Below are positions 419 through 55,876 of a DNA stretch of 64,000 bases, piece after piece (the stretch's first letter is position 1; every line of letters begins with the position of its first letter). The notes beneath the pieces are model-generated. The model saw only the letters and a program-made list of their open reading frames with translations. It made no database searches and was not told the origin of the DNA. The DNA is from Methylophilales bacterium MBRSF5 (GTDB taxonomy: Bacteria > Pseudomonadota > Gammaproteobacteria > Burkholderiales > Methylophilaceae). The translations under genes and the position numbers were made by a program. The stretch is taken from NCBI GenBank assembly GCA_001044335.1, contig CP011001.1, positions 434,001 to 498,000 on the forward strand, given 5' to 3'.

Positions 419-2392
419 TTAAACTTTTTGCTTGAGTTGATCCAGGATTGCAGGATTTTCCAGAGTAGAAATATCTGCGGTGATTTCCTCATCTTTGGCA
501 ATTGATCGAAGTAACCTTCTCATGATTTTCCCAGATCTCGTTTTAGGTAAATTATCACCGAATCTAATCTCATCAGGTTTAGCAATAGGTCCAATTTCAT
601 TTCCTACCCATGCGCGTAATTCATTGACTATTTCTGTCGCTTTCTCGGCATTAGGTCGATCTGATTTTAAAACAACAAAGGCGATGATGGATTCCCCTTT
701 GACGTCATGGGGTCTTCCAACAACAGCTGCCTCAGCGACCAAGTCATTGGCAACTAATGCAGATTCAATTTCCATTGTTCCTAGTCTATGACCTGAGACA
801 TTTAGTACATCATCAATTCTACCCATGATAGTAAAATAGCCTGATTCAGCATCTCTTACAGCACCATCACCAGCCAAATATAATTTTCCACCTAATTCAC
901 TGGGGAAGTAACTATTTTTAAATCGTTCTGGGTCACCCCATATTGTTCGGATCATAGATGGCCATGGTTTTTTTATTACCAGCAGTCCACCTTGCCCCCA
1001 TTCTAGATTTTGACCAGTTTCGTCCACTACATCAATTGCAATTCCAGGAAAAGGGAGTGTGCAAGAGCCTGGAACTAGGGGAGTGCTACCAGGAAGGGGT
1101 GTGATGACATGCCCGCCAGTTTCAGTTTGCCAAAAGGTATCAGCAATTGGACATTTTGAATTGCCTACATTTTCGTAGTACCACATCCAAGCTTCAGGGT
1201 TAATAGGCTCCCCAACTGTTCCCAAAATTCTTAATGAACTTAAGTCAAATGATTTTGGATGAACAGCCTCATCACTTTCAGAGGCTTTTATCAATGCTCT
1301 TATGGCAGTTGGCGCTGTATAAAAGATAGTTGCTTTGTACTTTTGTACAATTTCCCAAAAACGACCAGCATTGGGGAAGGTAGGCACTCCTTCAAAGATA
1401 ATTTGTGTTCCACCCAGTGCTAATGGACCATACGCCACATAAGTGTGACCGGTAATCCAACCCACGTCCGCGGTACACCAAAAGATGTCGTCATCCCTTA
1501 AATCAAAAGTCCATTTGGTGGTGTTGATTGCATGAAGCAGATATCCCCCTGATGAATGTTGAACTCCTTTTGGCTTTCCTGTTGATCCTGAGGTGTACAA
1601 AAGAAAGAGCGGATGCTCTGCATTTACCCACACTGGCTCACATTCTTCTTTTTGATTCTTACATAATGCATGCCAATCAATTTCATTTTCTTTTAGAGCT
1701 GCTTCTTTACCAGTTCGATTTAAAACAATAACTTTTTCAACCGAATCACAACCACCTAGAAGAATGGCATCATCAACAGCGGTTTTTAGTGGGAGCTCTT
1801 TACCCCCTCTATTTTGATAGTCGGCTGTGATGATAAGTTTTGCTCCAGCATCAATAACTCTCTCTTGAATACTTTTTGCAGAGAATCCACCAAAAACAAC
1901 AGAGTGTGTTAAACCAATTCGTGCACAAGCCTGCATGGCCACAACAGCTTCAATACCCATGGGGAGGTAAATGATGACACGGTCGCCTAAATTTAAGTTA
2001 AGGGTTTTTAAGCCGTTCGCGAACTGACATACTTTTTCATATAGCTCTTGGTAAGTAATTTCAGTTGTTTGGCCATCATCTGATTCAAAGATAATTGCTA
2101 CTTTATCTTTTTTGTTTGGAAGGTGTCGATCGATACAATTATAAGAAACGTTCAATTCACCATCATCAAACCATTTATAAAATGGTGCGTCATCTTCGTT
2201 AAGAATTTTGGTAAATGGTTTTTTCCAATCTATTAAATCTTTTGCCAGATCACCCCAATAACCCTCATAGTCCGCTTCTGCCGCATCACACAGTTGTTGA
2301 TATTCTTCTAGATTTTTAACATATGCATTTTCACTTAATGTTTTTGGCGGGTTAAAGACCCTATTTTCATGCATCACTGATTCAATCGCCAT
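419..2392 (-). CDS. acs: acetyl-CoA synthetase
   Basis: AMP-forming acetate:CoA ligase, converting acetate, ATP and CoA to acetyl-CoA, AMP and PPi in the cytoplasm. At 657 residues it has the normal length. Visible signatures are the N-terminal ACAS domain (about 30-90), the adenylation P-loop [11 protein letters not shown] (about 266-276), a WQTETGGH motif, and the C-terminal [11 protein letters not shown] segment in which K622 is the lysine that is acetylated for control in this family. The ATG is preceded by a strong GGGAGG ribosome binding site. The gene is divergent from a two-component system across a 122-base gap. In a methylotroph it would salvage acetate, but the substrate is inferred from family only. 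Confidence 0.95.
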
Positions 2393-22455: not shown

Positions 22456-22967
22456 GCCCATTTGATTATTTCATCTTAACGTTATTAATCGTTTCCTCGG
22501 TTTATGGCGTGTACCGTGGATTAATTAAAGAAGTCTTATCACTTACTGGTTTAGTTTTGTCTTTCTACTTGGCATCTAACTTTGATAACTTATTAGCGAG
22601 TATCGTTCCAATAGAAAATAAGTCTGATTTCTTAATTATTTCGGCTTTTATTTTGATATTTGTTTCTACTTTAATATTAACTTCAATTTTAATAAAGTTA
22701 ATTAGTAAAATCTTAAAACTTGCGGGTCTTTCTATTGTGAATAGGTTTTTTGGTTTTGTCTTTGGTATTGCAAGAGGTTTAGTGATAGTTTTAGTTATCC
22801 TTTATTTGAATCAACTTATTCCTTTTATAAATTTAATAGACCCCGCAGAGTCCTTACTCATTCCCCTTTTAGATCCTATATTTTCATTTGTTTTGGAGTA
22901 TTTACCAAATTATCAGTCTACCCATGTAGAATATAACTATGCAATCGTAACGGAGGAGCTCATCTAA
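22452..22967 (+). CDS. cvpA: CvpA family membrane protein
   Basis: 171-residue inner-membrane protein with four hydrophobic helices and the family start FDYFILTLLIVSSVYGVYRG, then an ARG-containing loop (GIARGLVIVLV). Named for a colicin V production phenotype; its basic role is envelope-related and not well defined. It is the usual partner upstream of purF, with which it overlaps by one base (TAATG). Confidence 0.9.
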   Translation: MSPFDYFILTLLIVSSVYGVYRGLIKEVLSLTGLVLSFYLASNFDNLLASIVPIENKSDFLIISAFILIFVSTLILTSILIKLISKILKLAGLSIVNRFFGFVFGIARGLVIVLVILYLNQLIPFINLIDPAESLLIPLLDPIFSFVLEYLPNYQSTHVEYNYAIVTEELI

Positions 22968-24520
22968 TGTGTGGAGTCATTGGAATTGTTTCTAATAACC
23001 CTGTCAATCAGATGCTATATGATGGACTTTTAGTATTGCAGCATAGAGGTCAAGATGCCGCCGGAATTGTTACCACAGACGGCAATAGATTTTACATGCA
23101 TAAAAATAATGGCCTCGTAAAAGACGTATTTCAAACCCGGCATATGAGAAATTTGATTGGAAATGCGGGAATAGCTCATGCTAGGTATCCGACGGCTGGA
23201 TCTTCTTCGGCAGCTGAAGCTCAACCATTCTATGTAAACTCACCTTACGGCATTGTACTTGGTCATAATGGTAATTTAACTAACTCTAGCAAGCTAAAAC
23301 AAGATATGTTTAAACAAGATTTAAGACATATCAATACCAACTCTGATTCTGAGGTTCTCATAAACGTATTGGCTCATGAGCTTGTTGATTCATCTAAAAA
23401 AAGCGTGCTTACAACGGATATGATATTTGATGCTGTTACCTCTCTATATAGCAGATGTAGTGGTGCTTTTGCGGTTGTATCCATGATTGCTAACTTTGGT
23501 TTACTTGCCTTTAGAGATCCCCATGGAATTAGACCTTTGGTTGTGGGTAAAAGAGAAATGGGTGATGGTCCAGAATACATTGTTGCTTCAGAGAGTGTGG
23601 CTTTAGATGTATTAGGTTTTGAGTTATTGAGAGACGTAGAACCGGGAGAGGCAATATTTATTGATCTTAATGGAAATTTTTATTCAAAAAAATGTGTGAG
23701 TGATAAGAAAGTTAGCCCTTGTATCTTTGAGTATGTATATCTGGCAAGACCTGATTCGGTAATCGATGGGGTTTCTGTTTATCAAACTCGTCTAAATATG
23801 GGGGAAACATTAGCAGAAAAAATTAAATCTGTACTAAAAGATGAAAAGATTGATGTAGTGATTCCTATTCCAGACACCAGTAGACCTACAGCTTTGCAAG
23901 TTGCGCAAAAGTTAAAAACAGATTTTAAAGAGGGGTTTGTTAAGAATAGATACATAGGTCGTACATTTATCATGCCCGGTCAGGAAACAAGAAAAAAATC
24001 AGTCAGACAAAAATTAAATCCAATTACAATTGAATTCAAAGGGAAAAGTGTGCTGCTGATCGATGATTCAATCGTCAGAGGAACCACATCAAAAGAAATT
24101 GTTGAAATGGCTCGTGACGCAGGTGCAAAGAAAGTTTTTCTGGCCTCCGCTGCGCCACCAGTAAAATTTCCAAATGTGTATGGGATTGACATGCCATCTC
24201 GCAATGAACTGATTGCTTTTGATAAATCAGAGGCTGAGATCTGTGAGGAAATTGGTGCCGATGGTGTGATATATCAGGAGTTAGATGCCCTAAAAAAGAA
24301 TGTGACCAAAGAAAATAAACAATTGACTGAGTTTGATGCATCTTGTTTTGATGGTCGTTACGTCACGGATGACATTGATGAAAATTATCTTAATTTGATT
24401 GAGTCAGTAAGGGCAGATTCATCAGCCAGCTTTAAACCAAAAAACTCAATTACCCAACTTGATTTAAATTTAATCACTAATCAAGATAGTGATGACGTCG
24501 ACGAGGTTCTTGAGCTTTAG
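22967..24520 (+). CDS. purF: amidophosphoribosyltransferase
   Basis: First enzyme of purine synthesis (PRPP + glutamine to phosphoribosylamine). 517 residues. The N-terminal nucleophile C2 is exposed by MCGVIGIV; glutaminase boxes GLLVLQHRGQDAAG and HNGNLTN follow; the PRPP site LLIDDSIVRGTT is at about 363-374. The C-terminus is slightly longer than usual and acidic. Last gene of the long run; the metZ promoter begins at the base after its stop. Confidence 0.98.
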   Translation: MCGVIGIVSNNPVNQMLYDGLLVLQHRGQDAAGIVTTDGNRFYMHKNNGLVKDVFQTRHMRNLIGNAGIAHARYPTAGSSSAAEAQPFYVNSPYGIVLGHNGNLTNSSKLKQDMFKQDLRHINTNSDSEVLINVLAHELVDSSKKSVLTTDMIFDAVTSLYSRCSGAFAVVSMIANFGLLAFRDPHGIRPLVVGKREMGDGPEYIVASESVALDVLGFELLRDVEPGEAIFIDLNGNFYSKKCVSDKKVSPCIFEYVYLARPDSVIDGVSVYQTRLNMGETLAEKIKSVLKDEKIDVVIPIPDTSRPTALQVAQKLKTDFKEGFVKNRYIGRTFIMPGQETRKKSVRQKLNPITIEFKGKSVLLIDDSIVRGTTSKEIVEMARDAGAKKVFLASAAPPVKFPNVYGIDMPSRNELIAFDKSEAEICEEIGADGVIYQELDALKKNVTKENKQLTEFDASCFDGRYVTDDIDENYLNLIESVRADSSASFKPKNSITQLDLNLITNQDSDDVDEVLEL

Positions 24521-24549
24521 TTGACCGACTCAGCTTTTTTTTAGATAAT
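24521..24549 (+). promoter_or_regulatory. sigma-70-type promoter for metZ
   Basis: TTGACC at 24521-24526, a 17-base spacer, and GATAAT at 24544-24549. The predicted first base (about 24556) falls on the first paired base of the riboswitch, which supports both calls. It starts at the base after the purF stop codon. Confidence 0.75.
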
Positions 24550-24553
24550 GACA

Positions 24554-24607
24554 TCGCGTTGATTTGCACCAGCTTGCTAGCGCAAACATAATTTAGCTAA
24601 ACTGAGG
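24554..24607 (+). promoter_or_regulatory. SAM-II-type riboswitch (metZ leader)
   Basis: The 54-base segment follows the SAM-II aptamer pattern: a UCGCG start, the loop element UGAUUU, UUGC before the closing strand, the AGCGC strand, and the 3' AGCUAAA box followed by a GG-containing purine run. Helix P1 can form between 24556-24560 and 24579-24583 (five pairs, one G-U). Loop bases AGCU at 24571-24574 can pair with AGCU at 24595-24598, giving the H-type pseudoknot expected of this class, and CC at 24569-24570 can face GG at 24606-24607. SAM-II elements sense S-adenosylmethionine and repress methionine genes at translation start; here metZ follows. The GAGG lies 19 bases before the metZ ATG, farther than in typical examples, so the read-out is unclear. 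Confidence 0.82.
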
Positions 24608-24626
24608 AATTCTGTTAAACAGAGTT

Positions 24627-25796
24627 ATGAAAAATAAAAATAAAAATAAAAATTTTGAAACTGATGCGGTACGAGCAGGAATTGAACGATCTCAGTTTGG
24701 AGAACATTCTGAGGGATTATTTCTTACATCAAGTTTTGTTTTTAAGAATGCACAAGAGGCAGCAAAACGTTTTTCTGGTGAGGAACCAGGGAATGTCTAC
24801 AGTCGATTTACCAATCCAACAGTAAAAGCTTTTGAAGAAAGGCTGGCATCACTTGAAGGTGCAGAGCAATGTATTGCAACGTCCTCTGGAATGTCTGCAA
24901 TTCTGGCTGCATTTATGGCTCTTTGTAAACCAGGGGATCATGTGGTTGTATCCAAAAGTATATTTGGTACTTCTGTTCAATTGTTCAATAATTTTTTAGC
25001 TAAGTGGGGGCTAAATATTAGCTTTGTTGACCTACCTGATTTGAATGCTTGGGAAGCAGCAACTACAAAAAATACTAAATTTTATTTTTTAGAAACCCCT
25101 TCAAACCCATTAACAGAAATTGTAGACTTAAAAAAATTATCTCAATTGGCTAAATCAAAAAAGGTTAAATTAATTGTAGACAATTGTTTTTGTACTCCAG
25201 CCTTACAAAAACCAATTGATCTCGGCGCTGACATCATTATTCATTCAGCAACAAAGTATTTAGACGGCCAGGGAAGATGTCTGGGCGGTGCTGTTCTTGG
25301 TAAAAAAAGACTAATGAATCAGGTTTATACCTTTTTAAGAAATTCAGGAGTTTCTCTCAGTCCTTTTAATGCATGGGTATTTTTAAAAGGCTTAGAAACA
25401 TTAAAAATTAGAATGGACCAACAATCTGATAATGCAATCAAACTGGCAAATTATCTTGAAAAAAATAAAAACATTGCAAAAGTTTACTATCCCGGTCTAA
25501 AAAGTCATCCACAACATAACACGTCCTTAGCACAACAATCCTCTGGCGGTGCTGTTTTATCATTTGTTGTAAAAGGTGGACAAAAGGCTGCATGGAAAAT
25601 CATCAATAAAACAAAGTTAATGTCCATCACAGCTAATTTAGGTGATACAAAAACGACCATCACTCATCCAGCGACAACGACTCACTCTCGCTTAACTCAA
25701 GAACAAAGAGATGATGCGGGCATTGATAATGGTTTAGTTCGTATCGCTGTTGGGTTAGAACATATTGATGACATTATTGCTGATTTAAACATCTAA
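24627..25796 (+). CDS. metZ: O-succinylhomoserine sulfhydrylase
   Basis: PLP enzyme of the Cys/Met metabolism family that forms homocysteine directly from O-succinylhomoserine and sulfide. 389 residues; PLP lysine K210 in HSATKYLDGQGR, and GNVYSRFTNPTV and ETPSNPL boxes. The order purF-metZ is typical for betaproteobacterial metZ, which separates it from cystathionine gamma-synthase, though the two cannot be told apart with certainty by motif. The N-terminus has a run of alternating Lys-Asn codons. Only a weak AGAG precedes the ATG, consistent with regulated initiation. Its sulfide would come from the cys genes at 37-43 kb. Confidence 0.92.
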   Translation: MKNKNKNKNFETDAVRAGIERSQFGEHSEGLFLTSSFVFKNAQEAAKRFSGEEPGNVYSRFTNPTVKAFEERLASLEGAEQCIATSSGMSAILAAFMALCKPGDHVVVSKSIFGTSVQLFNNFLAKWGLNISFVDLPDLNAWEAATTKNTKFYFLETPSNPLTEIVDLKKLSQLAKSKKVKLIVDNCFCTPALQKPIDLGADIIIHSATKYLDGQGRCLGGAVLGKKRLMNQVYTFLRNSGVSLSPFNAWVFLKGLETLKIRMDQQSDNAIKLANYLEKNKNIAKVYYPGLKSHPQHNTSLAQQSSGGAVLSFVVKGGQKAAWKIINKTKLMSITANLGDTKTTITHPATTTHSRLTQEQRDDAGIDNGLVRIAVGLEHIDDIIADLNI

Positions 25797-55800: not shown

Positions 55801-55876
55801 TGGCTCCCCAACCTGGGCTCGAACCAGGGACACACGGATTAACAGTCCGTTGCTCTACCGACTGAGCTATTGGGGA
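55801..55876 (-). tRNA. tRNA-Asn (anticodon GTT)
   Basis: 76-base cloverleaf on the minus strand: acceptor TCCCCAA pairs with TTGGGGA, D arm GCTC/GAGC with AGTCGGTA loop, anticodon loop CTGTTAA, T arm CCTGG-TTCGAGC-CCAGG, discriminator G, and an encoded CCA (tgg at 55801-55803 on plus). All four stems are intact. Confidence 0.97.

Follow-up and report, generated by a model that had tools for sequence, protein, structure and literature searches.

The window analyzed here is a 64,000-nt stretch of the genome of Methylophilales bacterium MBRSF5 (contig CP011001.1, positions 434,001 to 498,000), an OM43-type member of the Methylophilaceae whose nearest named strain by metZ is KB13 (98% identity). 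At the locus under study, an ORF that we take, from sequence knowledge, to be purF precedes metZ, and a 106-base intergenic gap separates the purF stop (24520) from the metZ start (24627). The identity of the downstream gene was established with two protein profiles, TIGR01325 (572 bits, cut-off 510) and NF006003 (658 bits, cut-off 522), in agreement with the original prediction, which had placed a riboswitch in cis to metZ. All of the elements named in that prediction are present in the gap, those of the proposed SAM-II aptamer in the predicted order within 24556-24607 (Table 1). The proposed promoter, which begins one base past the purF stop, also held up: its boxes, its spacing and the 7-nt distance from the -10 box to P1 do not differ among the eight metZ leaders in the clade to which the window belongs. 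The same synteny around metZ was observed across the genus and the family.

Table 1. Features of the purF-metZ region (positions in the window; clade, the eight related metZ leaders that include that of the window)
Feature	Position	Strand	Basis and remarks
purF ORF (presumed name), amidophosphoribosyltransferase	22967..24520	+	ORF list; stop codon adjoins the -35 box of the metZ promoter
Sigma-70-type promoter TTGACC-17-GATAAT	24521..24549	+	10/12 consensus matches; same in 8/8 clade leaders
-35 box TTGACC	24521..24526	+	Followed by the 17-nt spacer
-10 box GATAAT	24544..24549	+	
Predicted transcription start (G24556, first P1 base)	24556		7 nt past the -10 box; distance kept in 8 leaders
P1 5' strand GCGUU	24556..24560	+	Covariation, 73 distinct sequences, double changes in 4/5 pairs
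Third strand of the ligand-binding triplex, GAUUUG	24561..24566	+	UUU invariant in 23 distinct genus leaders; equivalent to SAM-V U8, U9, U10 (PMC6061858)
P2a 5' strand CCAG	24569..24572	+	From sequence; complementary to CUG/GG on the Shine-Dalgarno side; clade-invariant
P2 (pseudoknot) 5' strand UUGC	24574..24577	+	Genus-invariant; equivalent to SAM-V U19, U20, G21 and the next base (PMC6061858)
P1 3' strand AGCGC	24579..24583	+	Covariation as for the P1 5' strand
P2 (pseudoknot) 3' strand AGCUAAA with putative ligand contacts	24595..24601	+	Genus-invariant; equivalent to SAM-V U47, A48, A49, A50 (PMC6061858)
Predicted contacts: U24598 to adenine, A24599 in the sulfonium triple, A24601 to the amino-acyl part	24598, 24599, 24601		By homology
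P2a 3' strand CUGAGG with candidate Shine-Dalgarno GAGG (24604-24607)	24602..24607	+	From sequence; kept in 8/8 clade leaders
8-bp hairpin AAUUCUGU-UAA-ACAGAGUU	24608..24626	+	Folds; spans the whole gap from GAGG to the start codon; has no U-run, hence no intrinsic terminator
metZ, O-succinylhomoserine sulfhydrylase, controlled gene	24627..25796	+	Profile matches TIGR01325, NF006003

At curated thresholds, Rfam gave no match at the metZ leader. Under relaxed settings, RF00521 scored 15.3 bits there against a gathering threshold of 36, so that the covariance scan suggested with the original prediction formally failed. We also used a covariance model (R2) made of terminator-type leaders of the genus together with leaders of other genera and other families, the window's own clade being excluded. 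With this model, only one site of the 1.35-Mb genome matched significantly, that in the window, at 29.3 bits and E = 2.5e-4; the next match had E = 0.5. Homologous members of the family reach 41 bits with RF00521, and the window aligns among those members. Over the 187 Methylophilaceae genomes, a lineage model (R1) matched 159 (110 of the 119 good ones; 22 of 24 genera), whereas RF00521 exceeded its threshold in two; therefore, the Rfam miss is a limit of sensitivity of the RF00521 model, whose threshold serves detection and is not a biological feature, and a riboswitch that is nearly family-wide has been missed. RF01726 was over threshold in none of the 187. Membership of the window's leader in SAM-V or in long-loop SAM-II was rejected, no match over threshold being obtained (RF01826, none at E<=10 in 24500-24650; RF01726, none in the window). 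A search for a second copy of the aptamer in the host genome returned only weak matches (E>=0.4). The sole window feature over the Rfam threshold is a tRNA gene at 55804-55876 on the minus strand, with anticodon loop GUU (Asn).

In alignment A5, which is model-based and comprises 73 distinct sequences, P1 was 99.2% paired, with 31 double-change cells; its covariation score was reached by none of 500 shuffles, and slid controls gave 0.02-0.10 compared with 0.34. This alignment was fitted to P1 and is thus biased toward it. Alignment A4 taken alone gave 100% P1 pairing. Because MAFFT across all three leader classes shifts P1' by one base in class 3 and puts it out of register, covariation was counted on class 1/2-type alignments. 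The metZ leaders of congeners carry the same conserved block with differing P1 sequences. The innermost pair, U24560-A24579, is unstable within the clade (C.A in L002/L003, G.A in L007), and P1 consists of four firm pairs plus one variable pair. It encloses UUGC and the third strand, which fits the GAUUUR pattern of the class. In P2, UUGC and GCUAA are complementary; here the core never varies, and P2 and P2a are constant in the clade, so that covariation is uninformative and the support for P2 comes from identity with known contacts. The window has the ligand-pocket letters UUU / UU / UAAA, and none of them varies among the 23 distinct genus leaders. The pseudoknot originally drawn, AGCU (24571-24574) with AGCU (24595-24598), is possible on paper and was rejected, as it uses the wrong 5' strand relative to solved cores; the homologous pairing is instead that of UUGC (24574-24577) with GCUAA (24596-24600), in which U24598, by homology, would face the ligand. 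Plain secondary-structure (MFE) energy was also discarded as evidence for a riboswitch, as the leader folds no better than shuffles (z -0.11), which is expected because the aptamer is a small pseudoknot.

Thus, the SAM-II class assigned in the original prediction is confirmed by the match to the clade-free R2 model, the covariation of P1 and the invariant contact letters, and on sequence grounds the leader holds a divergent SAM-II aptamer at 24556-24607. The expected conservation of P1 and the pseudoknot in homologous metZ leaders was also observed, P1 covarying and the core letters being invariant in relatives. That this SAM-II/SAM-V fold answers another ligand or discriminates poorly (SAH, for example) appears very unlikely to us. 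Such a reading could draw on a sequence divergent enough to fall below the Rfam threshold and on a ligand identity that is itself deduced, but the letters that touch SAM are kept and invariant (PMC6061858), and metZ makes homocysteine, a SAM precursor.

With few exceptions, the R1 matches examined lie upstream of metZ, and the aptamer is present in almost every metZ leader examined. Across a sample of the wider order (Burkholderiales), RF00521 matched 157 of 300 genomes and 84 of 135 genera, with 51 genomes over threshold; in such above-threshold members, the aptamer stands before metX in L075, L083 and L084 and before metZ in L079. SAM-II in betaproteobacteria is therefore ordinary, contrary to the earlier view that it would be less expected there, and its association with metZ is family-wide. 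The class had already been listed for Beta- and Gammaproteobacteria in 2009 (PMC2704228). In 2014, an RNA element named metXZ, comprising a pseudoknot and a terminator and located upstream of metX or metZ in beta-proteobacteria (in three Methylophilales, at metZ), was published as new, without a ligand and separate from SAM_alpha (PMC4239095). It shares its position, its Methylophilales occurrences and its pseudoknot and terminator with the leaders described here, and from this comparison by published description we infer that metXZ is SAM-II; we found no other link between the two in the literature consulted. The orphan element would thereby gain a probable ligand, SAM. The single riboswitch recorded for OM43 strain H5P1 in a 2022 survey is one for cobalamin (PMC9004378), and therefore the regulatory inventory of OM43 is incomplete. 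We consider the novelty of the present findings moderate: the class itself was already known, and what is new is the changed expression platform and the probable identity of the orphan element.

Nearly all metZ leaders outside the genus are classical attenuators that combine SAM-II with an antiterminator and a U-run terminator, in that base pairing is possible between the aptamer segment GCUAAAGCG and CGUUUUAGC, which forms the 5' arm of the terminator. Of 51 metZ leaders from outside the genus, 46 matched a regular expression for the U-run, and visual inspection revealed one in at least three of the five that did not match. In these relatives, SAM would act as an OFF signal because an occupied P2 would free the terminator. 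No U-run or terminator-like site was found in 24400-24700 of the window, which contains neither the U-run terminator nor the antiterminator; both are absent from the clade leaders as well. In the nascent fold, the antiterminator energy is -0.7 kcal/mol in the window versus -4 to -12.6 kcal/mol in terminator-type relatives. The 8-bp hairpin, closed in both computed states, fills the 19 nt between GAGG and AUG, a distance that is long for a Shine-Dalgarno sequence unless the hairpin shortens it. This spacing varies in the clade, and L007/L008 have a second AGGA closer to AUG, inside the hairpin. When the leader is folded freely, GAGG is about half open. For the SAM-II riboswitch of Sinorhizobium meliloti metA, the Shine-Dalgarno sequence has been reported to be a GAGG in P2 that acts over a distance (PMC9373788). 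It seems that the window's lineage has swapped a transcription-stop switch for a block of translation start. Given the aptamer, control would probably be translational rather than transcriptional, and our confidence in this step is only moderate because of the 19-nt distance and the differing start regions of L006-L008.

Two other uses of the same leader have to be weighed against this reading. First, the SAM-II aptamer could still control transcription, with Rho-dependent termination or a weak hairpin pause in place of the lost intrinsic terminator, as might be expected from transcription termination in nearly all examined relatives outside the genus and from the fact that most SAM-II riboswitches act on transcription (PMC6061858). 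We regard this as unlikely in view of the lack of any terminator-like site around the leader, the very weak antiterminator and a hairpin that ends right at the start codon. Second, the AUG-proximal hairpin could be a SAM-controlled Shine-Dalgarno sequestor: in the absence of SAM, the P2 strand would pair with its 5' arm and free AGAG/AGGA, and with SAM the hairpin would form. Such a device would descend directly from terminator/antiterminator logic; ACUGAGG could pair with CC..UCAGU, and the AGGA of L007/L008 lies at a good spacing inside the hairpin. It is nevertheless improbable, as the hairpin is preferred by computed energy in either state for those clade members that were folded. For the window, a SAM-controlled anti-sequestor was rejected, since the competing pairing is less favorable than the hairpin by about 5.5 kcal/mol; moreover, just 2 nt separate AGAG from AUG there. 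The leader might also be regarded as a decayed, non-functional relic of the family riboswitch, given that it has lost its terminator, that one pair of P1 is not stable and that the element appears degenerate in at least one congener (L062). We think this highly improbable, as the core is invariant in eight clade members whose MetZ differs by up to 22%, and these small genomes have little spacer DNA.

The reading that we prefer, and consider very likely as judged from the sequence, is that the metZ leader of ~71 nt contains a SAM-II-class riboswitch that serves as a SAM-dependent OFF switch on homocysteine synthesis, probably at the level of translation; for the window, we infer both SAM binding and the OFF sign. 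Transcription would begin at or beside the first base of P1. At low SAM, P2 would be loose, GAGG accessible and metZ translated. At high SAM, the ligand in the P2 triplex (UUU / UUGC / GCUAAA) would stabilize P2/P2a, whereupon CUGAGG would pair with CCAG and the Shine-Dalgarno sequence would be hidden. The 8-bp hairpin is probably folded in both states, where it would draw GAGG and AUG together. Feedback by SAM at the MetZ step, as originally suggested, is thus supported as the most likely role.

Within the genus, the leaders differ in their platforms, and these differences follow the MetZ tree. The eight terminator-less leaders that include that of the window form one clade (100/100). Four tandem leaders form another (99/96) and six translational-only leaders a third (100/100), and these last two clades group as sisters (98/97). 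Each of the seven other genus rows of the tree, like every outgroup row, has a leader of the terminator type. The simplest reading is a terminator-type ancestor with one direct conversion, in the window's clade, and one conversion via the tandem stage. In the tandem leaders (L015, on the minus strand, L016, L017 and L018), a terminator SAM-II is followed by a second aptamer, for example at L017:1293-1349 and L017:1423-1488. These second aptamers have a 3-bp P3-like hairpin (GAC AUUU GUC in three) and, in three of four, AGGA; RF01826 scores 15.9 bits in L017. By its sequence features, the second tandem aptamer is intermediate between SAM-II and SAM-V. Tandem arrangements of such layout, both SAM-II/SAM-V and SAM-II/SAM-II, are known (PMC9481103). 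In three of the four tandem leaders, the first aptamer has GUUUUG, not GAUUUG, and is perhaps decaying.

The translational-only leaders (L014, L019 and L021-L024), directly upstream of metZ, have a translational aptamer alone (GGGUG..CACCC, AGCUAAAAAGGA), with AGGA close to AUG; they are nearly invisible to the Rfam SAM models (13-15 bits in L023). In one further member of the genus (G005), the aptamer at L062:855-914 on the minus strand has no visible U-run terminator after it, which is possibly a third independent terminator loss, or decay. Tandems of SAM-II with a SAM-V-like or second SAM-II aptamer were also observed in other betaproteobacterial contigs, namely L110:770-965 (minus strand), L077:about 1350-1578 (minus strand), L082 (minus strand), L102:301-349 and about 976-1035, L063:1494-1675 and L112:22-203 (minus strand). 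Where searched, the ORFs past the tandems of L110, L077, L102 and L082 matched no Pfam/NCBIfam family; an hsdM-like ORF lies near the L077 tandem.

On this basis, we put forward, as a proposal whose chances we judge to be evenly balanced, that the metZ SAM-II riboswitch was rebuilt twice from a transcription terminator to a translational switch within one streamlined genus, once by terminator loss and a GAGG/hairpin bridge to AUG and once via a stage with a SAM-II/SAM-V-like tandem, the first half of which was subsequently lost, metXZ being the ancestral SAM-II form. For the study of how platforms change under one conserved aptamer, the genus provides a short natural series of terminator, tandem, translational-only and terminator-less leaders.

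Among known systems, the window's leader most closely concerns SAM-II (RF00521, SAM_alpha; S. meliloti metZ and metA, PMC9373788), with which it shares P1, the GAUUUG third strand, CUUGC and GCUAAA, an H-type pseudoknot, a methionine gene downstream and, as in S. meliloti metA, a GAGG within P2. It differs from RF00521 in its short P1 (4-5 bp), its short loop and its sub-threshold score, and from the metZ riboswitches of S. meliloti and other Methylophilaceae in having no terminator. Long-loop SAM-II (RF01726) has the same core and gives no match in the window. The core of SAM-V superposes on that of SAM-II, with U47, A48 and A50 touching SAM in SAM-V (PMC6061858). With SAM-V (RF01826; Pelagibacter metY, PMC6061858), the leader shares this ligand core and the predicted translational control through P2a, whereas it lacks the longer P2, P3 and a match to RF01826.
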